Below are positions 4,246-36,994 of a stretch of 64,000 nt of DNA, in pieces. The stretch spans positions 25,594,001-25,658,000 of the forward strand of contig NC_092674.1 of the NCBI RefSeq assembly GCF_964355755.1, written 5' to 3'. How positions within the stretch are numbered: position 1 is the stretch's first letter; each line of letters opens with the position of its first letter. Under the pieces are notes generated by a model. The model was given only the letters and a program-made list of their open reading frames with translations, made no database searches and had not been told where the DNA came from. Both the position numbers and the translations under genes were made by a program. The stretch comes from Antedon mediterranea. Taxonomy: Eukaryota > Echinodermata > Crinoidea > Comatulida > Antedonidae.

Positions 4246-7200
4246 TTAAGCAGTGTCCAGCATACTTGCCATCTCCTTCATTTCTTTACTGAAGTTCTGC
4301 AATACAAAAATGACAATTAAAATTAAGTTCAAATTTATTTGTTCTGACCACTGCTGGTGGATCTAGGATTTTGAAATAGGGGAGGGAGCAGGGCCTTGTA
4401 AACAACATCACAATAGACAATATTGTCTTTGTTGTTAAACTCCATGTGGGCCATTGGGACAAGGCTACTGTGCATGTAATTTATTTACTATTTTTCTATA
4501 GGCACAGTTGACTACATGTATGCTGAAAGACAATATTTGGTTTGGCTATTGACACAGTCAACTGTAGTTTTATCAGCACATGAAGACTTCACATTAGATG
4601 GATGGCCAACCATGCCGATGGACCTATAGCATGACGCATGATTGACCATGCTGATAGACCTATATAACGCATAATTGACTAGGCTGATAGAACTATAATA
4701 TGACGCTAATTGACCGTGCTGATAGACCTGTATGACGCTGATAGAACTATAATATGATGCATGATGCATCTTTCAACACAAGAATAAATAGATTATTTTT
4801 TTGGGCCTTACCTGAAACTCTGAAATAGTCATTTCAAATGATCTTGTTGTCACCAGACCAGATGAATTCGCTACCTTCAGGGAAATGGTAACAAATGGAG
4901 AGTTGATATTCTTGCATGATTCTGATGACATGGCCATTCCTAGCTTCCATCGCATATCAATCAATTTGCCAACATTTAGTAAACGTGTTGCAGGCGTACT
5001 TAACAGCTTACCCTACCAAAACGAGAATAATTATTTTTTGCTGCAGAAATGTAAAAAAGAAAAAGAACACACGGCACCATCCAGGATTTCCAATTTAATT
5101 CATCATTTCCTACAGGCCTAAAACTGTGCATAGTCACATTTATGCAGCTGAGCTCTTTCTTTCTTCATATATTTGTTTTTTTTTAAATTGATTAAATTTT
5201 CAAATTTTTTTTATTCAGGATTTCTGTCAACACTAGAGATACAATTCGTGAATCCCTCTAGTGATGTTGACTTAATCTTCCTTCCTTCCTTCCTAGTACT
5301 GTATGTGTTCCAAAGATAGATGGTGGGTGTACATATTTGTTCTGGTTTTAGACATTTTGAACATCTTGCTGTGACCTCTAGTACCTGGAGGAGGTTCACA
5401 TGTTATATTATTTTTAAGTTTATTATTTTTTACCATTATTTATTTATTTATACAACTATACTATTCCTTTTCAATAGGAAATTTATTGATTCGCGTTTGA
5501 AATGATTGCCAAAAATATACTGCAGTAATCATTTCTTAATTTTAGTCGGTCGGTCGGTAAACACTAACTTGAGCACGCGACTGCAGCCATGTATATGGCC
5601 TTGTTGAATCATGGAGGTTATATCAGGGAAGAGAGAAATTACTCAGTTTTCTCACTTGTTCATTCCACAGTTGCTTCATAACAGACACTGTTGTGGCATC
5701 CCATAATAATGACTTGCTTAGTTCATCAGCTAATTCATCAGGTGTTGCATTACACTTTGCAGATGATCTAGAGGAAGGAACGCACATTAATGGTAAAACT
5801 AGAGGATTTTACAATTTATGTGTACAATTAAAAGATTTTTCTTATTCTAATAATTAGGGACTGATTTTGTGTGAAGTGGCGAGCATGCCAATTTATCAAT
5901 CGATGTACAATCAACTCGCACAATACAGGGGAAAAAACCACCAACAATTTATGAAAACTCTTCTCTTCTTGAATTGACTGTATTTATAAATTGTGACCGA
6001 ATGCCATATCTGGTAGCATAAAGTTCTGTCAAACTAGTTTGATGCGTTCAAATATAGTAGTGATGTGCCCAAATATGGTAGTGATATGGTCACATCACAT
6101 TTTGTTGTCACATAAAGTTTGTTAGTGTAGACAGAGTGAATTCCGAAACTCAGAATTAATATTTGCTAAATTGACTCACACACGTAAATATAATTCTTTT
6201 TATAAATATTTTAAAAGTAAACAGTACCTAAATACGAATACGATAGCTTCAATTGCAGATTCTACGTCACCGTTTGAACACCTGACATCAGCCTCTTCTA
6301 ATTTCTGAAAGTAATCCAAAATATTTTATTAGGACTTGGTTCATATGTCTATATAGGCATAGATTTTTTTTTACATGAGTTTACAAACTAAACGCAAGCA
6401 TTAAAAATAGAGTAAACAGTTATTAACAAAGCGCAGGGAAGAGACTCTTTCTTGGTATAGAGCCAACTCTTAATTTTCTTTATATAATATTATATATTTT
6501 ACTTACTAAATAAAAATACAGAAACAAATACTGTCTGCTTAATTTTCTATATAAATCTTTTTTTTTTAAATTTAATTTCACAGCGACACCCCAAAACAGT
6601 TTCAGATGGTATATCAATATTAGTCATTGAATAAGGATAGATGCCAACAAAATCGGTTCACTTTAATTGTTATCGTAACATGAACATCTAGTGACTTTAC
6701 TGCTAAGCGATTTATCAACTGAAGAAACAGTTTGAAAGATTAAAAGAATAAGTTGTTCATTAAATCACAACATGACGCTGTGAGGAAAAATATTTAAAGA
6801 AAGGAAAACAAGTTGGTAATCGCAATATTTGTCTATAAATAGTTTGGCGGACATCAAACATTTAGAAAAAAAAGTTATTTTATGATGGAAAATGTATAAA
6901 CCATATCGTGTTTACAAATATGAACAATGACGTGTGTGTACCGTATATCTAACAGCTTGAAAATGGATTTATATACATATAAATACAGAGTAAAAACAAC
7001 ATTATTGTATTTATTAATACATCAACAAGTCAAAGGGAAACAACCAGTTTACTGATCAACAGAAAATACTAAACATTCTAGAAATAAAAAGTGATTCTGG
7101 GTAAGTACATTATTATTATTCAGTATTGTTTTACTTTATGTAATAATAATAATATTCAATACTGTTATAGTTCTTTATACTGACAACCAACAGTGGGTCA

Positions 7201-10200
7201 GTACAAACAGGATCAATTGACTTGAACAACACTCTAAACAACTATAGTATTAATTAACATAAAGTGATTTAGTGTTGGTGGGAGAAATAATATCAAATTA
7301 AAATCTCCCAGTTGTAAATTTGATTCTTTAAAAAGAAGATCCTACTTTACTCATTTCATTTTTAAACTTTTGTATACTCTTTACGTGCACCTCTAGTCTA
7401 GGTTGTATAGAGATGGTGATTTGTGGTCTTACTGCTTGAGTAATACTCTAAACTAACTAGAACTAGTGTATAACATAATAATGGGTGTATGGTTTGATTG
7501 GATTTAGTTTGTAAAAATTAAAATCTCAGTTGTGAATTTTATTCTTAAAAAGCAAGATCCTATCCAATACTACTATACTCATTTCATTTTCTAACTTTTG
7601 TACCTCTTTACAAGTAGTCTAGGTTGTAAATGGTAATTTAGCTAAATATTAAAAAGAAAAACATTTTTGAACATTTGGTGTCATAATTATACTTGAGCTA
7701 AAATTAATTTGGTTTTTTTATATAGAAATGCTCACTGGTGGCCCTATGTAAAAAGAAATAACAAGTCCATACAAAAGCATTATTATCTGTATTTTGTAGT
7801 TAGATTGACGGTACAGATATGTCAGATAATAGTTCAGATTGGTTTTAGTGCCAAAATAGCTTCTATTTTTCTTTTACCTTAAGTTGCTGAATTAAAAAAG
7901 TTAGATGTAATTTTTTCGACCACCCTTTCATTCAGCTGCCATTAAAAAAAAATATATGGCACCGAAGATTGTGCTGGGAAACAGAATAAACGTTCTAAAG
8001 TTACACTTGATTTGCCTCTTAATAATATTGTAGTACAGGATCGTTTTTGGTGTTCTGCCTTTAGTTTTTAATAATTTTATATTTGTCTTGCTTGCAGTAA
8101 ATGAAATAAATAGTATTGTATAAACTTCAGAAAGTTATCAGGTTTGAGGTTCAAACTTTAGATCCATGGGACCCTCAACATGTAGTTATTTTATTGATAT
8201 TAACTTCTACTTTTTTTAAACAAAGACTTTGTATGAAATGATAATTAAAAACTTTGATTACAGATTCAACATGTTGCTTGCAATTAGTATCATTTACATC
8301 ATGATGATGATCCAATCAGCCGCTCTAGCGGAACCTGAAGCTTGTAATAGTTGTAGTGCTGGGGTTCCTGGCATTCCAGGACATCATGGTAATCCAGGCA
8401 CAATAGGACCACAAGGAATAAATGGAGAAAAGGGAATGAAAGGAGAAAATGGACAACAAGGAATGAAAGGAGAAAAAGGACTGAAAGGAGAACAAGGAAT
8501 GAATGGAGAACAAGGACTTAAAGGTGATAATGGAAAGAATGGACTAGATGGGATACCAGGGAAATTAGGACCACAGGGACCTCGAGGACCTATTGGGGTA
8601 CCAGGTTCAATTGGTGCAAAAGGTGAAAAGGGTGAACAAACCAATATTACTAAATCAGCCTTTACAGTAGCTTTTAAAAGAAGCCCAGGTCGTCCTACTG
8701 GCCCGTTAAAGTATGACACAACAATTACAAATGTAGGAAGTCACTACAACACTGAAACAGGCAAGTTTGTCTGTGAAATGCCAGGTGTTTATGTATTCCA
8801 AGTCACGTCAACAAAAGCTTCAGGAACTGGTAAAGTAGGAACAGCAATGATGAGAAATGGAAGCCGTCAAGTTTCCACACGGACAGAATCTGATAGATTT
8901 AGTTCGGTAAGCACAATGGTGATACTTGATTTAGTAGTAGGTGATGAAGTATGGACTCAGCCATTTAATTCAGCATATAACTATTACTATAGTGACAGCA
9001 ATGGATATTGCTCATTCTCAGGTTTCTTGCTTTATCCGTTATGGTAATATTCAGTATGGTAATACTAAAGGTTCATCTACTATACATTATCTTGTGGATA
9101 TGTTAAATTATGTTTATGAAAGTCTTGACAAGCCCAAACAATCAGTTGAACTCTGTACAATTGATTTTACTAAGGCCTTTGATAGAGTTAATCATACAAT
9201 TATTATAGATAAATTAATTAAACTTGGAGTTAGGTCATCCATTGTTTCCATCGTCTGCAGCTTTCTGTGTGAAAGAACTCATACTACCAAACCTGGCACG
9301 CACGTTTCTTCCACCAAATCAATCTCTTGTGGGGTACCACAGGGAACCAAACTGGGACCCATACTATTCTTGGTTCTAGTAAATGATGCTGCCATTGAAA
9401 GTTGTAGGCGTTGGAAATTTGTGGATGACCTGACTCTAGGGGAAGTAACCAAATGTGGTGCTTCCTCCAACTTACAAGTGTCCTTAATAGTGTCAGTGAG
9501 TGGTGTGCATCTAATGATGTTCTACCTAAACCAGCTAAATGCCAAGTAATTGAATTTAACTTTTTAAAGCAACGGCAGCTTAATTTAGTATACACTATTG
9601 ATAACTTTAATCTTCCAATAGTTGGTAAGTTAAAACTGCTTGGTGTAATAATCCAAAATGACCTCAAATGGGGTTCAAATGTTAATGATATAACATCAAG
9701 AGCCTCGCGTAGACTATTCTCACTATGTATCCTGAAAAGGTCTAGTGCACCAGTCAGTGACCTGGTTACAGTATTTACAGTACATCATATATCAGACCTG
9801 TGCTGGAATATGCCTGCCAGGTTTGGCATTCATCATTAACTGTTCAGCAATCTAATTTAATAGAAAAAATTCAAAAACGGGCATTGCGCATAATTTTGAG
9901 CCCACATTATATTAGCTATAAATTAGCCTTAGAGCAAGTAGGTTTGCCTTCTTTAAAGTCCCGTAGAGAACAGATTCTTCTCAAGTTTAGCAAGAGTCTT
10001 TTAGAATCTACAAAAATTTAGAAATATGTTACCAGCATATAAATCTGATAGACATTCAAGATCGTTAAGGAGCAATACTAGCTCAAAGTTGGATTCTTGC
10101 AGATGTTGTACAGAAAGATATAGGCGGTCTACTATTCCGCACTTAGCACGAATCCTTTAAGTTTAAGTTTAATGTTTAGTTCAGATCTCTTTTGATGTAT

Positions 10201-13200
10201 TTTACTTCTCAGTTTATGATTGTAATCCAACCTTTTCAGCTCTTGCTGCTGGTGGGAATTTGATGTTTTTTTATACCTTAATAAATAAAAAAATAAAAAA
10301 ATATCCATCCTAGGTTTGTTACTGAACCAAGAACACAGTATAAATAGAATACTTAATATTAATGAGGAATGATAATCACCATTTATTAATATACATTTCT
10401 GTTTATTTTATTGTACACAAATAATGAAACTAATAAAATAAATATTTTTTTATATATACAGAATTTCTCCTTTGGCGATCAATAATAAAATTATTCTGAT
10501 TGTCTGATTCTAAAACCTATAATTCTGAGGCTGAAGATATAGCACAGTATGATGCTATTCTAGTAATGTAATTTTAAAAAGTCAAATAAGACTAAAAATT
10601 ATCTGAATTACAACATAATAAATATATACAGTATATGTTTAAATAAAAGTTATTATTAACCAATAAAATACAAGCAACAAATTCAATTCATTCAATGTTT
10701 TATTTTAATTAATTGATAATAATGCTTCTTTTCATATTTCAAGTTTAAACTTCATAAATTAAAGTTCTAAAGAATTTGTCCAAATGTCGTGCAGTGTCCA
10801 CCTTGTCACAGTCACTAAACTATAGCATTCTGGATAGTTTTTTATATGATAACAAAATATTAAACGCAAGCATTAAAAATACGAGTAAATGGAAAACATA
10901 GAGCAGGGAAGAGACTCTTTGTTGGTATTTTTCTTGTATCTACTGTACATTATAATACTCCTGGTCTTGTGTTGAGAGATAAAGCTAGATCCTGCAAAGT
11001 ATATGTATTTTACTTAATAAATAAAAGGGTTACAAAAATAAGACTAATGAAATACAGAAACCAATAATGTCTTAATTTTCTAAAAATAATTTTTTTTTAC
11101 AAATTCAATTTTACAGCGGCATGAAATCACCACAACAAAGTTTCAGATGGTATATAAATATTAGTCTAGATGGAATAAGGATAAATGCCAACAAAATCTG
11201 TTCACTTTCATTGTTATCGTAACATGAACATCTAGCGACTTTACTGCTAAGCGATTTATCAACTGATGAAACAGTTGGAAAGATTAAAGAATAAATTGTT
11301 CATTAAATCACAACATGACGCTGTGAGGAAAAGTATTTAACGAAAGATAAATAAGTTGGTAATCGCAGTATTTGTTGCGATACTGGCCGGATGTTCATTT
11401 TTTTTATCATTTAAAATGTATAAACCATATCGTGTTTACAAAATTGAACAATGACGTGTATATCTAACAGCTTGAAAATGGATTTATAAATACAGAGAAA
11501 AACAACATTGTATTTATTAATACAGCAACAAGTCAAAGGAAAACATCCAGTTTACTGATCAACAGAAAGTACTAAACATTCTAGAAATAAAAAGTGATCT
11601 TGGGTAAGTACATTATTATTATTCAGTATATTGTTTTACTTTATGTAATAATAATAATATTCAATACTGTTATAGTTCTTTATACCTGACAACCAACAGT
11701 GGGTCAGTACAAACAGGATCAATTGACTTGAACAACACTCTAAACAACTATAGTATTAATTAACATAAAGTGATTTAGTGTTGGTGGGAGAAATAATATC
11801 AAATTAAAATCTCCCAGTTGTAAATTTGATTCTTTAAAAAGAAGATCCTACTTTAAAAAGGAAGATCCTACTTTACTCATTCCATTTTCTAACTTGTGTA
11901 TCTCTTACTGTACATGCACCTCTAGTCTAGGTTGTATAGAGATGTTGATTTGTGGTCTAATTGCTTGAGTAATACTCTAAACTAACTAGAACTAGTGTAT
12001 AACATAACAATGGATGTATTGTTTGATTGGATTTAGTTTGTAAAAATTAAAATCTCAGTTGTGAATTTTATTCTTAAAAAGCAAGATCCTATCCAATACT
12101 ACTATACTCATTTCATTTTCAAACTTTTGTACCTCTTTACAAGTAGTCTAGGTTGTAAATGGTAATTTAGCTAAATATTAAAAAGAAAAACATTTTTGAA
12201 CATTTGGTGTCATAATTATACTTGAGCTAAAATAAATTTGGTTTTTTTAAATCGAAATGCTCACTGGTGGCCCTATGTAAAAAGAAATAACAAGTCCATA
12301 CATAAGCATTATTATCTGTATTTTGTAGTTAGATTGATGGTACAGATATGTCAGATAATAGTTCAGATTGGTTTTAGTGCCAAAATAGCTTCTTTTTTTT
12401 CTTTTACTTTAAGTTGCTGAATTAAAAAAGTTAGGTGTAATTTTTTCGACCACCCTTTCATTCAGCTGCCATTAGAAAAAAATATATGGCACCGAAGATT
12501 GTGCTGGGAAACAGAATAAACGTTCTAAAGTTACACTTGATTTGGCTCTTAATAATATTGTAGTACAGGATCGTTTTTGGTGTTCTGCCCTTTAGTTTTT
12601 AATAATTTTATATTTGTCTTGCTTGCAGTAAATGAAATAAATAGTATTGTATAAACTTCAGAAAGTTATCAGGTTTGAGGTTCAAACTTTAGATCCATGG
12701 GACCCTCAACATGTAGTTATTTTATTGATATTAACTTCTACTTTTTTTAAACAAAGACTTTGTATGAAAAAATGATAATTAAAAACTTTGATTACAGATT
12801 CAACATGTTGCTTGCAATTAGTATCATTTACATCATGGTGATCCAATCAGCCGCTCTAGCAGAACCTGAAGCTTGTAATAGTTGTTGTAGTGCTGGGGTT
12901 CCTGGCATTCCAGGACATCATGGTAATCCAGGCGCAATTGGACCACAAGGAATAAATGGAGAAAAGGGAATAAAAGGAGAATATGGAGAACAAGGAATGA
13001 ATGGACAACACGGAATGAAAGGAGAAAATGGACTGAAAGGAGAACAAGGACTGAAAGGAGAACAAGGAATGAATGGAGAACAAGGACTTAAAGGTGATAA
13101 TGGAAAGAATGGACTAGATGGGATTCCAGGGAAATTAGGACCACAGGGACCACGAGGACCTATTGGGCTACCAGGTGCAATTGGCGCAAAAGGTGAAAAA

Positions 13201-25200: not shown

Positions 25201-28200
25201 TAGGAACAGCAATGATGAGAAATGGAAGCCGTCAAGTTTCCACACGGACAGAATCTGATAGATTTAGTTCGGTAAGCACAATGGTGGTACTTGATCTAGT
25301 AGTAGGTGATGAAGTATGGACTCAGCCATTTAATTCAGCATATAACTATTACTATAGTGACAGCAATGGATATTGCTCATTCTCAGGTTTCTTGCTTTAT
25401 CCGTTATGGTAATATTCAGTATGGTAATACTAAAGGTTCATCTACTATACATTATCTTGTGGATATGTTAAATTATGTTTATGAAAGTCTTGACAAGCCC
25501 AAACAATCAGTTGAACTCTGTACAATTGATTTTACTAAGGCCTTTGATAGAGTTAATCATACAATTATTATAGATAAATTAATTAAACTTGGAGTTAGGT
25601 CATCCATTGTTTCCATCGTCTGCAGCTTTCTGTGTGAAAGAACTCCTACTACCAAACTTGGCACGCACATTTCTTCCACCAAATCAATCTCTTGTGGGGT
25701 ACCACAGGGAACCAAACTGGGACCCATACTATTCTTGGTTCTAGTAAATGATGCTGCCATTGAAAGTTGTAGGCGTTGGAAATTTGTGGATGACCTGACT
25801 CTAGGGGAAGTAACCAAATGTGGTGCTTCCTCCAACTTACAAGTGTCCTTAATAGTGTCAGTGAGTGGTGTGCATCTAATGATGTTCTACCTAAACCAGC
25901 TAAATGCCAAGTAATTGAATTTAACTTTTTAAAGCAACGGCAGCTTAATTTAGTATACACTATTGATAACTTTAATCTTCCAATAGTTGGTAAGTTAAAA
26001 CTGCTTGGTGTAATAATCCAAAATGACCTCAAATGGGGTTCAAATGTTAATGATATAACATCAAGAGCCTCGCGTAGACTATTCTCACTATGTATCCTGA
26101 AAAGGTCTAGGGCACCAGTCAGTGACCTGGTTACAGTATTTACAGTACATCATATATCAGACCTGTGCTGGAATATGCCTGCCAGGTTTGGCATTCATCA
26201 TTAACTGTTCAGCAATCTAATTTAATAGAAAAAATTCAAAAACGGGCATTGCGCATAATTTTGAGCCCACATTACGTTAGCTATGAATTAGCCTTAGAGC
26301 AAGTAGGTTTGCCTTCTTTAAAGTCCCGTAGAGAACAGATTCTTCTCAAGTTTAGCAAGAGTCTTTTAGAATCTACAAAAATTTAGAAATATGTTACCAG
26401 CATATAAATCTGATAGACATTCAAGATCGTTAAGGAGCAATACTAGCTCAAAGTTGGATTCTTGCAGATGTCGTACAGAAAGATATAGGCGGTCTACTAT
26501 TCCGCACTTAGCACGAATCCTTTAAGTTTAAGTTTAATGTTTAGTTCAGATCTCTTTTGATGTATTTTACTTCTCAGTTTATGATTGTAATCCAACCTTT
26601 TCAGCTCTTGCTGCTGGTGGGAATTTGATGTTTTTTTATACCTTAATAAATAAAAAAATAAAAAAATATCCATCCTAGGTTTGTTACTGAACCAAGAACA
26701 CAGTATAAATAGAATACTTAATATTAATGAGGAATGATAGTCACCATTTATTAATATACATTTCTGTTTTATTTTATTGTACACAAATAATGAAACTAAT
26801 AAAATAAATATTTTTTTATATATATACAGAATTTCTCCTTTGGCGATCAATAATAAAATTATTCTGATTGTCTGATTCTAAAACCTATAATTCTGAGGCT
26901 GAAGATATAGCACAGTATGATGCTATTCTAGTAATGTAATTTTAAAAAGTCAAATAAGACTAAAAATTATCTGAATTACAACATAATAAATATACAGTAT
27001 ACAGTATATGTTTAAATAAAAGTTATTATTAACCAATAAAATACAAGCAACAAATTCAATTCATTCAATGTTTTATTTTAATTAATTGATAATAATGCTT
27101 CTTTTCATATTTCAAGTTTAAACTTCATAAATTAAAGTTCTAAAGAATTTGTCCAAATGTCGTGCAGTGTCCACCTTGTCACAGTCACTAAACTATAGCA
27201 TTCTGGATAGTTTTTTATATAATAACAAAATATTAAACGCAAGCATTAAAAATACGAGTAAATGGAAAACATAGAGCAGGGAAGAGACTCTTTGTTGGTA
27301 TTTTTCTTGTATCTACTGTACATTATAATACTCCTGGTCTTGTGTTGAGAGATAAAGCTAGATCCTGCAAAGTATATGTATTTTACTTAATAAATAAAAG
27401 GGTTACAAAAATAAGACTAATGAAATACAGAAACCAATAATGTCTTAATTTTCTAAAAATAATTTTTTTTTACAAATTCAATTTTACAGCGGCATGAAAT
27501 CACCACAACAAAGTTTCAGATGGTATATAAATATTAGTCTAGATGGAATAAGGATAAATGCCAACAAAATCTGTTCACTTTCATTGTTATCGTAACATGA
27601 ACATCTAGCGACTTTACTGCTAAGCGATTTATCAACTGATGAAACAGTTGGAAAGATTAAAGAATAAATTGTTCATTAAATCACAACATGACGCTGTGAG
27701 GAAAAGTATTTAACGAAAGATAAATAAGTTGGTAATCGCAGTATTTGTTGCGATACTGGCCGGATGTTCATTTTTTTTATCATTTAAAATGTATAAACCA
27801 TATCGTGTTTAATAAATTGAACAATGACATGTATATCTAACAGCTTGAAAATGGATTAATAAATACAGAGAAAAACAACATTGCATTTATTGATACATCA
27901 ACAAGTCAAAGGGAAACATCCAGTTTACTGATCAACAGAAAATACTAAACATTCTAGAAATAAAAAGTGATCTTGGGTAAGTACATTATTATTATTCAGT
28001 ATATTGTTTTACTTTAGGTAATAATTAATAATAATAATAATATTAATAATTAATAATAATAATGTTATAGTTCTTTATACCTGACAACCAAATTACAGTG
28101 GGTCAGTACCAACAGGATCAATTGACTTGAACAATACTCTAAACAACTACAGTATTAATTAACATAAAAGTGATTTAGTGGGAGTTAGAAATGATGTTAA

Positions 28201-31200
28201 ATTAAAATCCCAGTTGTAAATTTGATTCTTTAAATAGCAAGATCCTACTTTACTCATTCCATTTTCTAACTTTTGTATCTCTTTACATGCACCTCTAGTC
28301 TAGGTTGTATAGATGGTGATTTGTGGTCTTACTGCTTGAGTAATACTCTAAACTAACTAGAACTAGTGTATAACATAATAATAGGTGTTTGGTTTGATTG
28401 GATTTAGTTTGTAAAAATTAAAATCTCAGTTGTGAATTTTATTCTTAAAAAGCAAGATCCTATCCAATACTACTATACTCATTTCATTTTCAAACTTTTG
28501 TACCTCTTTACAAGTAGTCTAGGTTGTAAATGGTAATTTAGCTAAATATTAAAAAGAAAAACATTTTTGAACATTTGGTGTCATAATTATACTTGAGCTA
28601 AAATAAATTTGGTTTTTTTAAATCGAAATGCTCACTGGTGGCCCTATGTAAAAAGAAATAACAAGTCCATACATAAGCATTATTATCTGTATTTTGTAGT
28701 TAGATTGATGGTACAGATATGTCAGATAATAGTTCAGATTGGTTTTAGTGCCAAAATAGCTTCTTTTTTTTCTTTTACAGTACCTTAAGTTGCTGAATTA
28801 AAAAAGTTAGGTGTAATTTTTTCGACCACCCTTTCATTCAGCTGCCATTAGAAAAAAATATATGGCACCGAAGATTGTGCTGGGAAACAGAATAAACGTT
28901 CTAAAGTTACACTTGATTTGGCTCTTAATAATATTGTAGTACAGGATCGTTTTTGGTGTTCTGCCCTTTAGTTTTTAATAATTTTATATTTGTCTTGCTT
29001 GCAGTAAATGAAATAAATAGTATTGTTACACTTGATTTGGCTCTTAATAATATTGTAGTACAGGATCGTTTTTGGTGTTCTGCCCTTTAGTTTTTAATAA
29101 TTTTATATTTGTCTTGCTTGCAGTAAATGAAATAAATAGTATTGTATAAACTTCAGAAAGTTATCAGGTTTGAGGTTCAAACTTTAGATCCATGGGACCC
29201 TCAACATGTAGTTATTTTATTGATATTAACTTCTACTTTTTTTAAACAAAGACTTTGTATGAAAAAATGATAATTAAAAACTTTGATTACAGATTCAACA
29301 TGTTGCTTGCAATTAGTATCATTTACATCATGGTGATCCAATCAGCCGCTCTAGCAGAACCTGAAGCTTGTAATAGTTGTAGTGCTGGGGTTCCTGGCAT
29401 TCCAGGACATCATGGTAATCCAGGCGCAATTGGACCACAAGGAATAAATGGAGAAAAGGGAATAAAAGGAGAATATGGAGAACAAGGAATGAATGGACAA
29501 CACGGAATGAAAGGAGAAAATGGACAAGGAATGAAAGGAGAAAAAGGACTGAAAGGAGAACAAGGAATGAATGGAGAACAAGGACTTAAAGGTGATAATG
29601 GAAAGAATGGACTAGATGGGATTCCAGGGAAATTAGGACCACAGGGACCACGAGGACCTATTGGGCTACCAGGTGCAATTGGCGCAAAAGGTGAAAAAGG
29701 TGAACAAACCAATATAACTAAATCAGCCTTTACAGTAGCTTTTAAAAGACCCCCAGGTCGTCCTACTGGCCCGTTAAAGTATGACACAACAATTACAAAT
29801 TTAGGAAGTCACTACAACACTGAAACAGGCAAGTTTGTCTGTGAAATTCCAGGTGTTTATGTATTTCAAGTCACGTCACAAAAAACTTCAGGAACTAGTA
29901 AAGTAGGAACAGCAATGATCAGAAATGGGAACCGTCAAGTTTCCACAATGACACATTTTGATACATATAGTTCAGTAAGCACAATGGTGGTACTTGATCT
30001 AGTAGTAGGTGATGAAGTATGGACTGAACCATTTAATTCACAATATAACTATTACTATAGTGACAGCAATGGATATTGCTCATTCTCAGGTTTCTTGCTT
30101 TATCCATCCTAAAGTTTCTACTCAACCAAGAAAGCAGTTATAAATAGGAATACAATTCAATCACTGAGATAAATATAAATACCTAGGTAAAGTGAAATGT
30201 CAATGTATTTACAATGGAGGAATTATACCATTGTAATCATACATTTCAGTTTTATTTTAATGTACACAAATAATAAAACATAAAAGCTATAATTCTAAAG
30301 GCTGAAGATATAGTACAGTATGATACTAGTCTAGTTGAAACCAAAAAGTCAAAGAAGACTAAAAGTTATCTGAATTACAACATAATGAATATATTTAAAT
30401 GCATGTTATTATTAATAATTAATATACAGTATGTTTAAATGTATTTTACTTAATGATGTATTGTCCCTTGAAACACAAAAAAATGAAGGTCAAAATATTC
30501 TAAATTTAAAGTGGCCATATCAAAGTAATATTAAAGTTATTCACTTTAAGTCGAAAATTTAAGCCAAAACAACAAGTTTACGTAATTAACAGGTAAATTA
30601 GTTTGATTACATTTCATCTGGAAAATCGTCACGAGCGAAAGTAAACAAAGATTTCAAACCATGAGTACGCATTATGCATGCCAAATTAGGATTGTTTACA
30701 ACTCGTCACGGTTAAGAAGGTATTTTCACACAGATCATGAAGAAGTTTTATGATTATGCATACAGAGTATATATAGCCAAACAAGCGCGTTTCATTATGG
30801 GATATATTTTGATTGAAAACTTTGACTGGAAGTCAAAGTTATTTTTTTAACAAAAAAACGTCTGTATTTCAGTTAAATTTTTTTTATACAGTATATGTTT
30901 AAATGCATGTTATTATTACTCAATAAAATAAAAGCAACAAATATTCATGTTTTATTTTAAGTTATTGATATTAATGCTTCTGTTCATATTTCAAGTTTAA
31001 ACTTCATAATTGAAAGTTCTAAGAATTTGTCTCTCCAACTTGTCACAGTCACCAAACGATAGCATTCTGGATAGTCATGATTACAAAATATTAAACGCAA
31101 GCATTGAAAATAGAGTTACTGTATGTTAATGTTAACATAGAGCAGGGAAGAGACTCTTTCTTGGTATAGAGCCAACTCCTAATATTCTACTGTCTGTACA

Positions 31201-34200
31201 TTATAATACTCCTGGTCTTGTGTTGAGAGATAAAGCTAGATCCTGCAAAGTATATTGTATTTTACTTAATAAATAAAAGATATACAGAAACAAATACTGT
31301 CTGGTTAATTTTCTAAAAATTTTTTTTATTTGTTACAAATTCAATTTTACAGCGACAAAATCACCACAAAAAACTTTCAGATGGTACAGTATATCAATAT
31401 TAGTTTAGATTGAATAAGGATAAATGCCAACAAAATCGGTTCACTTTCATTCTTATCGTAACATGAACATCTAGCGACTTTACTGCTAAGCGATTTATCA
31501 ACTAATGAAACAGTTTGAAAGATTAAAGAATAAATTGTTCATTAAATCACAACATGATGCTGTGAGGAAAAGTATTTATGGGTGATAATGGAAAGAATGG
31601 ACTAGATGGGATACCAGGGAAATTAGGACCACAGGGACCTCGAGGACCTTTTGGGCTACCAGGTTCAATTGGTGCAAAAGGTGAAAAGGGTGAACAAACC
31701 AATATAACTAAATCAGCCTTTACAGTAGCTTTTAAAAGAAGCCCAGGTTGTCCTACATACTTGATTTAGTAGTAGGTGATGAAGTATGGACTCAGCCATT
31801 TAATTCAGTATATAACTATTACTATAGTGACAGCAATGGATATTGCTCATTCTCAGGTTTCTTGTTTTATCCATCCTAGGTTTGTTACTCAACCAAGAAC
31901 ACAGTATAAATAGAATACTTACTATTAATGAGGAATGATAATCACCATTTATTAATATACATTTCTGTTTTATTTTATTGTACACAAATAATGAAACTAA
32001 TAAAATAAATATTTTTATATATATACAGAATTTCTCCTTTGGCGATCAATAATAAAATTATTCTGATTGTCTGATTCTAAAACCTATAATTCTGAGGCTG
32101 AAGATATAGTACAGTATGATGCTATTCTAGTTAATTTTAAAAAGTCAAATAAGACTAAAAATTATCTGAATTACAACATAATAAATATATTCAGTATATG
32201 TTTAAATAAAAGTTATTATTAACCAATAAATACAAGCAACAAATTCAATTTATTCAATGTTTTATTTTAATTAATTGATAATAATGCTTCTTTTCATATT
32301 TCAAGTTTAAACTTCATAAATTAAAGTTCTAAAGAATTTGTCCAAATGTCGTGCAGTGTCCACCTTGTCACAGTCACCAAACTATAGCATTCTGGATAGT
32401 TTTTTAAATGATAACAAAATATTAAACGCAAGCATTAAAAATACGAGTAAATGGAAACCATAGAGCAGGGAAGAGACTCTTTGTTGGTATTTTTCTTGTA
32501 TCTACTGTACATTATTATACTCCTGGTTTTATGTTGAGAGATAAAGCTATAGGTCCTGCAAAGGTTCCCCAATTCACTCAAATCAATACAAAATAATGCA
32601 ACCTTCAAAATAAAACTTAAAGAATATTTTAATAATGAACAGCTTGGAATTTCAGTTTAATTAAGTTATTTTTAATATTGTTTTTTTGATGTTATCTGGT
32701 CTTGTATGTATTTTCTTGTTTTTTCATTTTTACTGAGTCATACTTAATGATAATTGTACTAGGCCCAACCACTCACTTTTCAGTCATTACGGATTGGACC
32801 CCATTGGAAATAAGTTTACTTTTTTGTCGACTTAATGGGTTATCCAGGTATTCTCTTTTATACAGTGTATATTTTAACTTTTATGTATGAATATCGAATA
32901 AAATCAATCAATCAAAGTATATGTATTTTACTTAATAAATAAAAGGGTTACAAAAGTAAGACTAATGAAATACAGAAACCAATAATGTCTGCTTAATTTT
33001 CTAAAAATAATTTTTTTTACAAATTCAATTTTTACAGCCACATGAAATCACCCCAACAAATTTTTAGATGGTATATCAATATTAGTCTAAATGGAATAAG
33101 GATAAATGCCAACAAAATTGGTTCACTTTCAATGTTATCGTAACATGAACATCTAGCAACTTTACTGCTAAGCGATTTATCAACTGATGAAACAGTTTGA
33201 AAGATTAAAGAATAAATTGTTCATTAAATCACAACATGATGCTGTGAGGAAAAGTATTTAAAGAAAGAAAAATAAGTTGGTAATCGCAATATTTGTCTAT
33301 AAATAGTTTGGCGGAAATCAAACATTTAGAAAAAAATTGTTATTTTATCATGGCAAATGTATAAACCATATCGTGTTTACAAAATTGAACAATGACGTGT
33401 ATATCTAACAGCTTGAAAATGGATTTATATACATATAAATACACAGAAAAACAACATTACATTTATTAATACATCAACAAGTCAAAGGGAAACATCCAGT
33501 TTACTGATCAACAGAAAATACCAAACATTCTAGAAATAAAAAGTGATCTTGGGTAAGTACATTATTATTATTCAGTATTTTTGTACTTTAGATAATAATA
33601 ATAATAATAATAATAACACTAATAATAATAATAATACTGTTATAGTTCTTTATACCTGACAACCAAATTAAAGTGAGTCAGTACCAACAGGATCAATTGA
33701 CTTAAACAACACTCTAAACAACTACAGTAGAAATTAAATTAAGTGATTTTGGTGGGAGTTAAAAATGATTTTAAATTAAAACCCCAGTTGTAAATTTGAT
33801 TCTTTAAAAGGCAAGATCCTACTTTACTCATTCCATTTTCTAACTTGTGTATCTCTTACTGTACATGCACCTCTAGTCTAGGTTGTATAGAGATGATGAT
33901 TTGTGGTCTTATTGCTTAAGTATTACTCTAAACTAACTAGAACTAGTGTATAACGTAATAATGGATGTATAACATAATAATGGGTGTATGGTTTGATTGG
34001 ATTTAGTTATGAATTTTATTCTTAAAAAGCAAGATCCAATCCAATACTACTATACTCATTTCATTTTCAAACTTTTGTACCTCTTTACAAGTAGTCTAGG
34101 TTGTAAATGGTAATTTAGCTTAATAATTATTAATATTAAACAGAAAAACATTTTGGAAAATTTGGTGTCATAATTATAATTTAGCTAAAATAAATTTTGT

Positions 34201-36994
34201 TTTTTTAATAGAAATGCTTACTGGTGGCCCTATGTAAAAAGAAATAACAATTCCATACTAAAGCATTATTACCTGTAGTATCTGTATTTTGTTAGATTGA
34301 TGGTGCTAAAGATATGTCAAATAATAGTTCAGATTGTTTTTAAAATTAAATCATCAACATTTTTATTCCTTTATCAATATAAAAAACATATACAAATACA
34401 ATACAAATAATATGATAATGGAATGGGATACAAAATAAGCACAAGTGCTTTTAAGCATGTAACCCTAACAAAAAAGATCAAACATTAGTACTGTACAAAC
34501 AAAAAAGAACAAACCAAAATAACATAATGTGATTTACTTAACTTAAATATTTCTATTGTTATAATGCTGCTTTAATCTCTGTTTAAACAAACTTAGAGTG
34601 GGGGATTGTTTTATATAATCTGTTTAATTGTTCCAAATATGTGTTCCTTGGTAGGAAATACATTGCTGTCCAACTTTGGTGCATTTTAGTTGTGGACAGT
34701 AGTTTGACCTGTTTCTAGTTGAGTAATTATGGAATGAGGCAGATGTACTAAATAAGTTATTAAATGATTCAGGTAATAGATTATGTTTATTGATACATAA
34801 ATATAGCACTAAGCAGTGTGTTTCGTATAAAGATCAACAATATTTAATGTTTGGGTCAAAATAAAAAGTGAATGAGAAGGATGCCAAAATAGCTTTTTTT
34901 GGCTACCTTTATCTTGAGTTGCTGAATTAAAAAATGTTATGTGTTATTTTTTTTCGACCATCTTTCAGTTACCATTTAACAACATTTTGTGGCACCAAGA
35001 TTAAGCTGGAAAACAGAATATTAAAACCTTATAATGTTACACTTGATTTAGCCCATAATAATGTAGTACAAGATCGTTTGTGGTGTTTTTTTGTTGTTAG
35101 TTTTTAATTATTTATTCAAAAACACACAATAAAAATAATGTACAAAGTTCAGAAAGTTATCAGGTTTCAAATTTTAGATCAATGAGGCCCAACATTTAAT
35201 TATTTTATAGTAAATACAGGTATTAACTTCTTTTTTTTTTTTTAATAAAGATATGTGTACTGTATGAAAAAATGATAATTAAAAACTTTGATTTTAGATT
35301 CAAGATGTTGCTTGCAATTAGTATCGTCTACATCATGGTGATCCAATCAGCCGCTCAAGCGAAACCTGAAGCTTGTAATAGTTGTTGTAGTGCTGGGGTT
35401 CCTGGCATTCCAGGAAATCATGGTAATCCAGGCGCAATTGGACCACAAGGAATAAATGGAGAAAAGGGAATGAAAGGAGAATATGGACTGAAAGGAGAAC
35501 AAGGAATGAAAGGAGAACAAGGAATGAATGGTGAACATGGAATAAAAGGTGATCGAGGACCAGGGGGACCTCAAGGACCTATTGGGCTACCAGGTTCAAT
35601 TGCCGCAAAAGGTGAACAAACCAATATTACTAAATCAGCCTTTACAGTAGCTTTTAAAAGAAGCCTAGACCGTCCTACTGGCCCATTAATGTATGACACA
35701 ACAATTACAAATGTAGGAAGTCACTACAACACTGAAACAGGCAAGTTTGTCTGTGAAATTCCAGGTGTTTATGTATTTCAAGTCACGTCAGCAAAAGATG
35801 CAGGAACTGGTAGAGTAGGAACAAAAATGATGAGAAATGGAAACCAACAAGTTTCCACACTGTCACATTCTGATACATTTGATTCAGTAAGCACAATGGT
35901 GGTACTTGATTTAGTAGTAGGTGATGAAGTATGGACTGAGCCATTAAATACAATATATCATAACTATTACTATAGTAACAGAAATGGATATTGCTCATTC
36001 TCAGGTTTCTTACTTTATCCATCCTAAAGTTTCTACTCAACCAAGAAATAGAAAAATATTTTATCATGAATAACGATTCTTTACCACTAAGATTAAATAT
36101 ACCTAGGTAGAGTACGATGGAGGAATTCTAATAACTAATACTAACACTTAAATTGTACATTTCAGTATATTGCTGAAACAAATAAACATAAATCACTAGT
36201 ACTACTATAGTTAGTAAAGTTTTTCAATTAAAAACAATTTATTATATGCATGTTATGTTATTATAACCTAATAAAATAAATTCCAAGCCAAATAATCAGG
36301 ATTTTTTTTCATATCCCTTTATTGAGATTCAGGAGGATAACTTTAAATTTAACAGGAGCGTCTCAATTATCTTGAGACTTTGTGAGGTCTTACTGTACTT
36401 TGAAAAGATGTGTGATTATTACCTCAAGTAAATTGTCAGCATTTACAGGACCCTGACTACATTGTAGGCACAACAATACGTCTCTGCAGGTTTCTGTGAA
36501 GATGTCTTGTGGAAATGTGTGGATGACCTCAACGGCTTTTGAAAAACCTACATGCATGGAATAAACTTACATTCTAAAAATCAATTTACTTAGTTTATTT
36601 TCTATTTTTACGTACAAAGGTGATCTGTCATATACAGTGTTAACTGTTTTCTACGCACATTGATATAAAGCTAAATGAATTACTACTCTCGATCTGGGAC
36701 GGCTTATATTATTATTAGGCCGAAACGACTCGACAAACAATGACAGATTGGATCGTACTGCCGGTTCTACTCCTTTTATTTATACAGTATTTCCAGAGAG
36801 GTCGTGTGGCCTAGCTAGCCCCTAAGTGCTACACAGTAGGGCCTTCCCAGGTTAATAAGCTGTTTCGGTATCTAAAATACACATTTTTTAATATCTGGGA
36901 CTATTCTATATCTATAAAAAGTAAGAAGAAACCAGGTCTAGCTGAATTAATTGAATTTAATTCTACCTTTTGGTACGCATACAAGGATCGCCAT
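4246..36994 (-). CDS. COMMD6: COMM domain-containing protein 6 (Commander/CCC complex)
   Basis: Six exons join in phase: 36994-36967, 36547-36423, 6304-6228, 5767-5656, 5012-4812 and 4296-4246, giving 197 residues. COMMD6 is a subunit of the COMMD ring of Commander, which recycles endosomal cargo with Retriever and CCDC22/93. The C-terminal COMM domain is very clear: a DMRWKLGMAMSS stretch, SFEMTISEFQNF, and a short tail ending MLDTA. The N-terminal helical domain (exons 2-4) is retained, unlike the short human form. Exon 1 encodes only nine residues from a strong-context ATG in a CpG-rich patch. If exon 1 is wrong, an in-frame ATG at 36557 gives 191 residues. Intron 2 (6305-36422, 30.1 kb) contains the whole antisense C1q-collagen array. 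The splice across it joins ...NADNLLE to KLEEADV in phase 0. The COMM half is certain; exon 1 is the weakest call. Confidence 0.87.
4330..4420. repeat. Dispersed repeat fragment
   Basis: A segment around ggtggatctaggattttgaaatagg recurs with small changes at about 43025-43080 in a NAA15 intron, so both are pieces of one dispersed element. The type is not clear; a hAT-like element end is possible. Confidence 0.35.
4611..4766. repeat. Irregular minisatellite in COMMD6 last intron
   Basis: About five imperfect copies of a unit containing gctgatagacctata or gctgatagaactata, spaced 21-36 bases apart. Confidence 0.6.
6024..6136. repeat. MITE family 1, partial copy (COMMD6 intron 3)
   Basis: It carries tgtcaaactagtttga, then gtgatgtgcccaaatatgg, and ends with the complementary terminus agtgtagacagag. 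Related copies occur at 37.7, 44.6, 47.8, 50.8 and 60.9 kb. Confidence 0.65.
6967..7100 (+). promoter_or_regulatory. Unit 1 promoter and non-coding exon 1
   Basis: The TATA-like tatatacatataaatac is followed by a leader of about 90 bases ending in ctgg, with donor GTAAGT at 7101. The acceptor is ttttttaaacaaag, ending at 8225. The upstream part (agtttggcggacatc, near 6842) matches only unit 9, not the inner units. Transcript support is needed for the exact start. Confidence 0.5.
8238..9047 (+). CDS. C1q-collagen protein, unit 1 (LINE-modified C-terminus)
   Basis: A 269-residue secreted protein from a single coding exon. A signal peptide (MLLAISIIY onwards, from residue 12) is followed by mature EPEACNSCSAG with two cysteines, 31 uninterrupted Gly-X-Y triplets, a TNIT glycosylation sequon and a C1q head of about 125 residues. 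The head contains GKFVCEMPGVYVF and CSFSGFLLYP. Such proteins form trimers and often bundles, and act as soluble pattern-recognition or complement-like molecules; the ligand here is unknown. A LINE inserted just before the stop, so the protein ends YPLW where other units end YPS. The second in-frame ATG (codon 12) could also start translation. It differs from unit 6 by one residue (I/V in STMVILD). Confidence 0.9.
   Translation: MIIKNFDYRFNMLLAISIIYIMMMIQSAALAEPEACNSCSAGVPGIPGHHGNPGTIGPQGINGEKGMKGENGQQGMKGEKGLKGEQGMNGEQGLKGDNGKNGLDGIPGKLGPQGPRGPIGVPGSIGAKGEKGEQTNITKSAFTVAFKRSPGRPTGPLKYDTTITNVGSHYNTETGKFVCEMPGVYVFQVTSTKASGTGKVGTAMMRNGSRQVSTRTESDRFSSVSTMVILDLVVGDEVWTQPFNSAYNYYYSDSNGYCSFSGFLLYPLW
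9038..10301 (+). mobile_element. 5'-truncated non-LTR retrotransposon (LINE) with broken RT
   Basis: 1264 bases lie between target-site copies of tatcc (9033-9037 and 10302-10306), with a 3' tail of aaataaa repeats. It carries the C-terminal half of a reverse transcriptase: IDFTKAFDRVNH, SCGVPQGTKLGP and FVDDLTLGE, where YADD is more usual. The C-terminal part includes LEYACQVWHSSL and IQKRALRII. The frame breaks after FVDDLTL and again near 9800, so it is dead. The style is CR1/L2/Jockey-like; the clade is not resolved. The same insertion recurs in unit 6. Confidence 0.85.
10302..11480. other. Spacer between units 1 and 2
   Basis: This is the original 3' flank of unit 1 after the LINE, including aataaa signals near 10434, then the upstream flank of unit 2. 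The block ttgttgcgatactggccgg near 11373 marks the inner-unit promoter type. No gene is seen. Confidence 0.55.
11481..11603 (+). promoter_or_regulatory. Unit 2 promoter and non-coding exon 1
   Basis: TATA-like atttataaataca, then a leader ending in ttgg with donor GTAAGT at 11604. The intron runs to the acceptor aaacaaag just before 12760. Confidence 0.5.
12772..13614 (+). CDS. C1q-collagen protein, unit 2
   Basis: A 280-residue member of the same secreted family. It has a signal peptide to about residue 30, a CNSCC cysteine cluster (three cysteines), 35 Gly-X-Y triplets with an internally expanded GEQ/GLK segment, the TNIT sequon and a C1q head. Head variants include QKTSGPSK, RNGNRQVSTMTHSD, TEPFNSQY and YGHSNGYC, which separate it from units 1, 4 and 5 and tie it to unit 7. 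It ends YPS followed by TAA; units 3, 4, 5 and 8 use TAG. A tiny upstream ORF (ATG AAA AAA TGA) overlaps the start codon. Confidence 0.9.
   Translation: MIIKNFDYRFNMLLAISIIYIMVIQSAALAEPEACNSCCSAGVPGIPGHHGNPGAIGPQGINGEKGIKGEYGEQGMNGQHGMKGENGLKGEQGLKGEQGMNGEQGLKGDNGKNGLDGIPGKLGPQGPRGPIGLPGAIGAKGEKGEQTNITKSAFTVAFKRPPGRPNGPLKYDTTITNLGSHYNTETGKFVCEIPGVYVFQVTSQKTSGPSKVGTAMIRNGNRQVSTMTHSDTYSSVSTMVVLDLVVGDEVWTEPFNSQYNYYYGHSNGYCSFSGFLLYPS
13615..15075. other. Spacer between units 2 and 3
   Basis: The 3' flank of unit 2, then a stretch (about 13952-14400) absent from most spacers that begins like MITE family 2 (ttaaagatgtattgtccc) but lacks its right end, then unit-type upstream sequence. It is matched almost base for base by 30113-31577 after unit 7. 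Confidence 0.55.
15076..15600 (+). pseudogene. 5'-truncated C1q-collagen copy, unit 3
   Basis: An open frame of 174 residues contains 13 Gly-X-Y triplets, TNIT and a full C1q head (AKPSGTGK, RNGIIQVSTRTESD, TEPFGSSF). A deletion fused the far-upstream flank (gaggaaaagtattt) directly to the collagen stretch. The TATA box, 5' exon, intron, signal peptide and cysteine cluster are all gone. The ATG exists only because of the junction. Without a signal peptide the product could not follow the usual secretory route, so it is probably a pseudogene, but the head is intact and could donate sequence by gene conversion. Confidence 0.8.
15601..16771. other. Spacer between units 3 and 4
   Basis: Standard 3' flank with aataaa signals followed by the inner-type upstream flank. 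No gene or extra insertion is seen. Confidence 0.5.
16772..16894 (+). promoter_or_regulatory. Unit 4 promoter and non-coding exon 1
   Basis: TATA-like atttataaataca and a leader with donor GTAAGT at 16895; acceptor aaacaaag just before 18057. Confidence 0.5.
18069..18875 (+). CDS. C1q-collagen protein, unit 4
   Basis: A 268-residue secreted member with signal peptide, CNSCC cluster, 31 uninterrupted Gly-X-Y triplets, TNIT sequon and C1q head. The head is mosaic. QKTSGTG resembles units 2 and 7, RNGIIQVSTRTESD and TEPFGSS resemble unit 3, and SDTYSS is shared with unit 5. The collagen segment has the same triplet order as units 1 and 6. The upstream part of its intron (about 17690-17930) diverges from the other inner units and resembles unit 9. 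Confidence 0.9.
   Translation: MIIKNFDYRFNMLLAISIIYIMVIQSAALAEPEACNSCCSAGVPGIPGHHGNPGTIGPQGINGEKGMKGENGQQGMKGEKGLKGEQGMNGEQGLKGDNGKNGLDGIPGKLGPQGPRGPIGLPGSIGAKGEKGEQTNITKSAFTVAFKRSPGRPTGPLKYDTTITNVGSHYNTETGKFVCEIPGVYVFQVTSQKTSGTGRVGTTMMRNGIIQVSTRTESDTYSSVSTMVILDLVVGDEVWTEPFGSSYNYYYSNSYGYCSFSGFLLYPS
18876..20046. other. Spacer between units 4 and 5
   Basis: Standard 3' flank, aataaa signals near 18995, then inner-type upstream flank. No gene is seen. Confidence 0.5.
20047..20170 (+). promoter_or_regulatory. Unit 5 promoter and non-coding exon 1
   Basis: TATA-like attaataaataca (a variant shared with unit 7) and a leader with donor GTAAGT at 20171; acceptor just before 21305. Confidence 0.45.
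21317..22168 (+). CDS. C1q-collagen protein, unit 5 (longest collagen stalk)
   Basis: At 283 residues this is the longest copy. The signal peptide runs to about residue 30. Cys35, Cys38 and Cys39 form the N-terminal cluster. 36 Gly-X-Y triplets span about 42-149, TNIT follows at 150-153, and the C1q head fills the rest. Head variants are AKDAGTGK (as in unit 9), RNGSRQVSTRTESD (as in units 1 and 6) and TQPFYSAY. Its collagen combines the GEYGEQGMNGQHG block of units 2 and 7 with the GENGQQGMKGEKG block of units 1, 4 and 6. Confidence 0.9.
   Translation: MIIKNFDYRFNMLLAISIIYIMVIQSAALAEPEACNSCCSAGVPGIPGHHGNPGAIGPQGINGEKGIKGEYGEQGMNGQHGMKGENGQQGMKGEKGLKGEQGMNGEQGLKGDNGKNGLDGIPGKLGPQGPRGPIGLPGSIGAKGEKGEQTNITKSAFTVAFKRSPGRPTGPLKYDTTITNVGSHYNTETGKFVCEIPGVYVFQVTSAKDAGTGKVGTAMMRNGSRQVSTRTESDTYSSVSTMMILDLVVGDEVWTQPFYSAYNYYYSDSNGYCSFSGFLLYPS
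22169..23339. other. Spacer between units 5 and 6
   Basis: Standard 3' flank and inner-type upstream flank. No gene is seen. Confidence 0.5.
23340..23463 (+). promoter_or_regulatory. Unit 6 promoter and non-coding exon 1
   Basis: TATA-like atttataaataca and a leader ending ctgg, as in unit 1, with donor GTAAGT at 23464; acceptor just before 24591. Confidence 0.5.
24603..25412 (+). CDS. C1q-collagen protein, unit 6 (LINE-modified C-terminus)
   Basis: 269 residues, differing from unit 1 at one residue. It has the same two-cysteine CNSC cluster, 31 triplets, TNIT sequon and C1q head, and the same LINE-derived C-terminal LW. It is the block-duplication partner of unit 1. The downstream LINE removes the normal 3' flank from immediately after the stop, so message processing may differ from the other units. 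Confidence 0.9.
   Translation: MIIKNFDYRFNMLLAISIIYIMMMIQSAALAEPEACNSCSAGVPGIPGHHGNPGTIGPQGINGEKGMKGENGQQGMKGEKGLKGEQGMNGEQGLKGDNGKNGLDGIPGKLGPQGPRGPIGVPGSIGAKGEKGEQTNITKSAFTVAFKRSPGRPTGPLKYDTTITNVGSHYNTETGKFVCEMPGVYVFQVTSTKASGTGKVGTAMMRNGSRQVSTRTESDRFSSVSTMVVLDLVVGDEVWTQPFNSAYNYYYSDSNGYCSFSGFLLYPLW
25403..26666 (+). mobile_element. Same 5'-truncated LINE, duplicated copy
   Basis: Again 1264 bases, at the same position of the C1q unit, with the same tatcc flanks (right copy 26667-26671), the same frame breaks and the same tail. It differs from 9038-10301 by only a few substitutions, so it was copied with the unit and not inserted independently. Confidence 0.85.
26667..27851. other. Spacer between units 6 and 7
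   Basis: The counterpart of the unit 1-2 spacer. It holds 3' flank and inner-type upstream flank with no gene. Confidence 0.5.
27852..27976 (+). promoter_or_regulatory. Unit 7 promoter and non-coding exon 1
   Basis: TATA-like attaataaataca and a leader with donor GTAAGT at 27977. The intron is longer than usual because of an (AAT)n run near 28021-28068 and the 119-base duplication at 28906-29143. Confidence 0.45.
28906..29143. repeat. 119-base direct duplication in unit 7 intron
   Basis: The segment starting gttacacttgatttggctc at 28906 is repeated from 29025, apparently without change, and includes the tgcttgcag tract. Other units have one copy. Confidence 0.85.
29267..30112 (+). CDS. C1q-collagen protein, unit 7 (interrupted collagen)
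   Basis: 281 residues with signal peptide, a two-cysteine CNSC cluster, collagen, TNIT and a C1q head close to unit 2 (RNGNRQVSTMTH, TEPFNSQY). A 3-base loss turns GENGQQGMK into GENGQGMK, so one Gly-X-Y triplet lacks its third residue. Such breaks put a flexible kink in C1q and mannose-binding-lectin stalks. The stop is TAA as in unit 2. The frame is otherwise intact. Confidence 0.9.
   Translation: MIIKNFDYRFNMLLAISIIYIMVIQSAALAEPEACNSCSAGVPGIPGHHGNPGAIGPQGINGEKGIKGEYGEQGMNGQHGMKGENGQGMKGEKGLKGEQGMNGEQGLKGDNGKNGLDGIPGKLGPQGPRGPIGLPGAIGAKGEKGEQTNITKSAFTVAFKRPPGRPTGPLKYDTTITNLGSHYNTETGKFVCEIPGVYVFQVTSQKTSGTSKVGTAMIRNGNRQVSTMTHFDTYSSVSTMVVLDLVVGDEVWTEPFNSQYNYYYSDSNGYCSFSGFLLYPS
30113..31577. 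other. Spacer between units 7 and 8
   Basis: Nearly identical to 13615-15075, including the one-ended MITE family 2 start at about 30442. No gene is seen. Confidence 0.55.
31578..31879 (+). pseudogene. Doubly deleted C1q-collagen copy, unit 8
   Basis: It shares the 5' truncation junction of unit 3 (aagtatttatgggtgataatgg). A second deletion of a little over 200 bases inside the head joins cctac to atacttgatttag and shifts the frame, giving a stop at 31767-31769. The last head segment (VVGDEVWTQPFNS to CSFSGFL) persists in another frame up to 31879. It cannot encode a C1q domain. Confidence 0.88.
31880..33420. other. Spacer between units 8 and 9
   Basis: Standard 3' flank interrupted by a LINE tail (32564-32912). 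The outer-type upstream flank follows, with agtttggcggaaatc near 33306 as in unit 1. No gene is seen. Confidence 0.5.
32564..32912 (+). mobile_element. LINE 3' end with (AATC)n tail
   Basis: This 349-base insert sits between caaag target-site copies (32559-32563 and 32913-32917). Its start still reads as the C-terminus of an RT-type ORF (FKIKLKEYFNNEQL) followed by a 3' UTR and a tail of aatc repeats. It is absent from the matching place in other units, so it is younger than the array. Confidence 0.7.
33421..33552 (+). promoter_or_regulatory. Unit 9 promoter and non-coding exon 1
   Basis: TATA-like tatatacatataaatac, as in unit 1, and a leader with donor GTAAGT at 33553. An (AAT)n run follows at about 33592-33640. 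The intron is enlarged by an antisense LINE; the acceptor is tttaataaag, ending at 35250. Confidence 0.5.
34342..34882 (-). mobile_element. Antisense LINE 3' fragment in unit 9 intron
   Basis: It lies between ttcagattgttttta and gccaaaatagc, which are adjacent in unit 4. On the minus strand it encodes the end of an RT-type protein (YCPQLKCTKVGQQC, GTHIWNNL) followed by a 3' UTR. The same 3' UTR occurs in plus orientation at 44337-44586. Confidence 0.7.
35272..36027 (+). CDS. C1q-collagen protein, unit 9 (divergent copy)
   Basis: 251 residues, the most divergent member. It has the signal peptide, a CNSCC cluster and a shorter collagen of about 23 triplets containing GLKGEQGMKGEQ and GDRGPGGPQG. 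A Gly-to-Ala change (GSI AAK GEQ) breaks the last triplets. The TNIT sequon is kept. The C1q head has its own variants (RSLDRPTG, RNGNQQVSTLSHSD, TEPLNTIYHNYYYSN). With unit 1 it shares the outer-type promoter flank, so units 1 and 9 probably bracket the original locus and the inner units arose between them. Confidence 0.9.
   Translation: MIIKNFDFRFKMLLAISIVYIMVIQSAAQAKPEACNSCCSAGVPGIPGNHGNPGAIGPQGINGEKGMKGEYGLKGEQGMKGEQGMNGEHGIKGDRGPGGPQGPIGLPGSIAAKGEQTNITKSAFTVAFKRSLDRPTGPLMYDTTITNVGSHYNTETGKFVCEIPGVYVFQVTSAKDAGTGRVGTKMMRNGNQQVSTLSHSDTFDSVSTMVVLDLVVGDEVWTEPLNTIYHNYYYSNRNGYCSFSGFLLYPS
36028..36422. other. Right edge of the array
   Basis: The 3' flank of unit 9 (cctaggtagagtac, as after units 2 and 7), decaying into unrelated sequence before COMMD6 exon 2. 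No gene is seen. Confidence 0.5.

Follow-up and report, generated by a model that had tools for sequence, protein, structure and literature searches.

A tandem array of C1q-collagen genes nested antisense within a COMMD6 intron of the crinoid Antedon mediterranea

The closest described counterpart of the locus reported here is the dunce intron of Drosophila, which harbors Sgs4 and four ng genes and thus places secreted-protein genes of dynamic families inside an unrelated, conserved host (PMC10835880). We found no closer precedent for gene clusters or tandem arrays in introns in the openly licensed literature. A complete opposite-strand gene in an intron of a conserved host is also known from 2mit, nested in timeless2, and no functional relationship was found between that nested gene and its host (PMC3786989). 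Opposite-strand nesting is the more common arrangement, accounting for ∼63% of human nested genes (PMC3192792). Clusters of C1q-domain-containing genes that grew by tandem duplication have been described in oysters, where this growth is attributed to unequal crossing over and new copies are under positive selection (PMC6835236).

We analysed a stretch of 64,000 nucleotides of Antedon mediterranea DNA (the window; contig 5, 25594001-25658000) together with the genome that was searched, which comprises 354 Mb in 18 contigs. As read from the genomic sequence, a tandem array of predicted C1q-collagen genes lies antisense within one intron of COMMD6. Like the dunce cluster, it consists of predicted secreted-protein genes of a dynamic family in an unrelated conserved host, but the fly genes encode glue proteins, and the ng genes have no counterpart of the intron found in their Sgs3-like relatives (PMC10835880). 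The array described here, in contrast, keeps both a putative promoter region and a 5′UTR intron and contains more near-identical intact copies than the dunce nested cluster. The orientation is that of 2mit in timeless2, with the difference that 2mit is one protein-coding nested gene (PMC3786989) while here we observe an expanding array. Tandem duplication is shared with the oyster clusters, whose C1q genes, unlike the nested genes here, have no collagen tails (PMC6835236).

The locus therefore joins two known phenomena, nested genes and tandem C1q expansion, and holds no surprise of principle; what it adds to these known kinds is a clear record of array growth and decay. The first-pass annotation of this DNA had regarded tandem immune-type families as common and the expansion of one in an antisense intron of a conserved gene as unusual. 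Given the frequency of opposite-strand nesting (PMC3192792) and the dunce precedent (PMC10835880), "unusual" is only half right. The value of the locus lies rather in its preservation, since the start, growth and decay of a tandem immune-gene array can be traced within a conserved, single-copy host. The host requires only splicing, and the locus therefore offers a natural test of the extent to which antisense genes can enlarge an intron without harm to the host gene.

The COMMD6 host gene and its long intron

COMMD6 lies on the minus strand and comprises six coding exons. Exon 1 (36967 to 36994) provides the ATG and a GT donor, and exon 2 (36423 to 36547) has one genomic match; exons 3 (6228 to 6304), 4 (5656 to 5767), 5 (4812 to 5012, with the COMM domain match) and 6 (4246 to 4296, with the stop codon) follow on the far side of the array. 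All junctions are GT-AG and there is no frame break, giving a predicted protein of 197 amino acids, so the proposal that exons 1-2 and 3-6 join in phase was borne out. The product matches Pfam COMM_domain (1.6e-18) and COMM_HN (1.3e-6, residues 11-94, above the cut-off). Its best solved relatives are chains of human COMMD6 (1.1e-19), followed by COMMD4 (1.1e-7).

A Pfam search with exons 1-2 alone gave no match, these exons being short and divergent. We assign them to COMMD6 on the basis of the frame, the splice sites and the COMM_HN match, which spans the junction between exon 2 and exon 3 (residue 51/52), that is, the junction across the array. Both exons that flank the 30-kb intron are open, and the reading frame continues from one to the other. 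The COMM domain is shared with human COMMD6 of the Commander/CCC complex, the best PDB match of the protein described here; the human protein has no HN domain, whereas the crinoid one keeps it, as does COMMD6 of other non-human species (PMC10187114). The earlier annotation had also asked whether another complete COMMD6 locus exists, and we found none in the 354-Mb genome. Upstream of COMMD6 and on the same minus strand, an NAA15-like gene (NatA auxiliary subunit) occupies ∼42000 to 48200 of the window, and short-chain dehydrogenase exons lie downstream on the plus strand (1293 to 2463).

The intron between exons 2 and 3 (6305 to 36422, minus strand) measures 30,118 bp, ∼50 to 70 times the length of the others, the five introns of the gene being 419, 30,118, 460, 643 and 515 bp long. 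The array would thus lengthen the COMMD6 pre-mRNA, as had been expected. Sequence homologous to the array extends from ∼6362 to 36048, with all C1q copies on the plus strand and between 6305 and 36422, which agrees with the description of an intron filled almost edge to edge. Outside the array, only ∼57 bp remain next to exon 3 and 374 bp next to exon 2. This remainder of ∼430 bp is of the size of the other COMMD6 introns and for that reason suggests, without proving it, that the array invaded an intron of ordinary, short length. The right flank (36049 to 36422) has no other genomic copy, and we therefore see no sign of a transposon vehicle.

We also considered whether native intron DNA had been duplicated into the array spacers, but the match of 36255 to 36309 to position 14409 by blastn was weak and a spacer profile HMM was unsupportive, so this idea was dropped. 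Dating the host intron through COMMD paralogs was likewise abandoned: the position of the intron is not clearly common to them, and the exon boundaries differ in the sole clear HN paralog (L068).

The nested C1q genes

Searches with the C1q domain gave 86 matches in the genome, eight of them in the window, and a more sensitive search revealed a ninth copy, a remnant. The nine copies counted in the first-pass annotation are in fact seven full-length genes and two broken ones, namely a 5′-truncated copy (N3) and the small remnant (N8). The seven intact genes (N1, N2, N4, N5, N6, N7 and N9) encode predicted proteins of 240 to 272 amino acids with a hydrophobic N-terminal stretch (by eye only, MLLAISIIYIMVIQSAALA), collagen repeats and a C1q domain, in the order known from secreted collagen-tailed C1q proteins (sC1q-like type I), and for N1 and N9 the Pfam Collagen and C1q matches are both above the cut-off.

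Each intact gene is preceded, ∼1.2 to 1.8 kb upstream of its coding exon, by a ∼140-bp element that ends in a GGTAAGT donor (7 of 7), and this element is absent from both broken copies. N1 (8271 to 9047, element at ∼6978-7119) has an intact open reading frame, N2 lies at 12805 to 13614 (element at 11475-11622), and N3 (15064 to 15600) has lost the putative promoter element, the predicted signal peptide and the N-terminal collagen. N4 follows at 18102 to 18875, with its 5′UTR exon at ∼16766-16897, a GTAAGT donor and an acceptor 7 nucleotides before the ATG, and N5 at 21350 to 22168 (element at 20042-20189). Downstream of these are N6 (24636 to 25412, element at 23335-23482), N7 (29300 to 30112, element at 27848-27995), N8 (∼31575 to 31879), which carries a further internal deletion of ∼0.22 kb, and N9 (35305 to 36027, element at 33434-33571).

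A fragment of a non-LTR retrotransposon (9038 to 10302, plus strand; Pfam RVT_1) sits at the 3′ end of N1, and a second copy of this LINE fragment (25403 to 26667, plus strand) at that of N6. The insertion changes the last codons of both genes, which end in YPLW instead of YPS. The fragment belongs to a dispersed family with many genomic copies at 94 to 97% identity that have a common 3′ end.

A similar element with a donor precedes most of the C1q genes examined on contig 3, and an acceptor AG lies ∼7 nucleotides before the ATG in nested and contig-3 genes alike. From these splice signals, the nested genes are read as a noncoding first exon, a 5′UTR intron and one coding exon; they are not single-exon genes. 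Most nested copies have a TATA-like box close to where the element begins, with changes in N5 and N7; this box is not strictly conserved and does not match that of the contig-3 genes. The intact nested genes presumably have their own promoters.

Origin of the array and its relation to the host

A tree built from a codon alignment of the C1q domain, which covered all nested copies but the remnant N8 (too short), unites them in a single clade that has 100% support and a stem of 0.26 substitutions per site. Their nearest relatives, at 68 to 70% amino acid identity, belong to a large cluster on contig 3. This main C1q-collagen cluster spans 3.38 to 4.08 Mb and contains ∼40 copies on both strands (L028-L045, L051, L053-L057, L061-L064). 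Outside the coding exon and the short upstream element, no similarity is left between the spacers of the array and contig 3.

The array is built of units of ∼3.3 kb that are mostly 90 to 96% alike. The block from 6514 to 15254 recurs at 22910 to 31756 with 96.4 to 98.9% identity, which identifies N6-N7-N8 as duplicates of N1-N2-N3, copied as a block of ∼9 kb that included the LINE fragment. N9 is the most diverged copy, its 5′UTR intron differing by ∼0.2 from those of all other copies. Given that all testable copies form one clade, the simplest history would be a single seeding event at the DNA level, after which the array expanded where it had landed.

We consider it very probable that a C1q gene was copied as DNA into a short COMMD6 intron and multiplied there, and that the two units are transcribed separately. 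A C1q-collagen gene with its promoter region, 5′UTR exon and 5′UTR intron would have been copied from the lineage of the contig-3 cluster, this being the direction of copying that we infer, and would have landed antisense in an ordinary intron of presumably ∼0.45 kb. Unequal exchange with a period of ∼3.3 kb would then have enlarged the array in place, and a later, single duplication of the ∼9-kb block would have carried the LINE fragment along, with seven intact and two broken genes as the outcome. The nested genes would act as independent plus-strand units under their own promoters, their products being predicted secreted, collagen-tailed C1q lectin-like proteins with a presumed immune role, whose C1q loops may diversify under selection. 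COMMD6 would be transcribed through the whole array on the other strand and the 30-kb array spliced out of its pre-mRNA. Both partners are presumably expressed, and they need have no functional relationship.

Genome assemblies are known to go wrong at tandem arrays, and the C1q array could in principle have been misplaced into COMMD6. We regard such an artefact as extremely improbable because the window is free of N gaps and because the array is bordered by the two parts of the genome's only COMMD6, which stand in the right order, orientation and phase; in addition, the nested copies are a clade separate from other C1q clusters, and no tool result favors misplacement. If the array had started from a retroposed C1q mRNA, this would account for the whole C1q coding region lying in one exon, as in a retrocopy, but one coding exon is also typical of the contig-3 family. 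A retrocopy would moreover have lost the 5′UTR exon, the 5′UTR intron and the splice sites, all of which are conserved in nested and contig-3 genes, and their retention argues for copying at the DNA level. With the 5′UTR intron kept, there is no intron loss relative to the parent of the kind expected of retrogenes, and we hold retroposition to be highly improbable.

Among human nested genes there are documented cases of transcriptional interference, and a nested gene can lead to intron retention, exonization or cryptic polyadenylation of its host's transcripts (PMC3192792). COMMD6 and the C1q array may plausibly interfere with each other's transcription, as the first-pass annotation had proposed. 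A stronger proposal is that the antisense nesting is itself regulatory and kept by selection, with C1q induction repressing COMMD6 or COMMD6 read-through restraining the array. Its geometry and the human cases of interference (PMC3192792) would fit, but no sequence feature indicates a dedicated link, and we think this unlikely. We judge it very unlikely that the intron acts as a sheltered nursery in which a young array of immune genes can grow, where copy-number changes tune Commander output and an infection-induced array lowers or delays COMMD6; if it were so, immune-gene turnover would directly tune the Commander endosomal recycling complex through the length of the COMMD6 pre-mRNA.

Elsewhere in the genome, a dispersed single C1q copy on contig 9 (L049-L050, ∼11.886-11.890 Mb) contains an in-frame TGA and has a similar 5′UTR-exon element. 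A reverse-transcriptase open reading frame separates this element from the coding exon.

Replacement pattern in the C1q domain

To compare substitution patterns, 27 variable positions of the C1q domain were chosen on contig-3 paralogs only and then tested on the seven intact nested genes. At these positions pN is 0.186 and pS 0.026, whereas the other 107 positions show a pN of 0.038 and a pS of 0.070; the 5′UTR introns of the nested genes differ by 0.092 on average. Counted as minimum changes, replacement and silent substitutions number 25:0 at the 27 positions versus 21:10 elsewhere (Fisher p = 0.0013), counts that gene conversion among the copies could distort. When replacement counts were permuted, 0 of 20,000 random site sets scored as high as the 27 positions. 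The replacements are thus unevenly distributed, a pattern that suggests diversifying selection on the nested C1q genes, with relaxed constraint also possible.

The C1q domain of N4 was modelled by AlphaFold with high confidence (mean pLDDT 95), and by Foldseek the model resembles gC1q domains (C1QTNF5, adiponectin and C1q) with a TM score of up to 0.90. Many of the variable residues are located in or beside inter-strand loops of this model (∼60-65, 75-76, 81-88 and 107-121), so the pattern fits a diversification of predicted ligand-binding loops.

The copies also vary outside the C1q domain. Their collagen stretches differ in length and show up as tandem repeats of 18, 36, 45 and 54 bp between 8400 and 35550 of the window.
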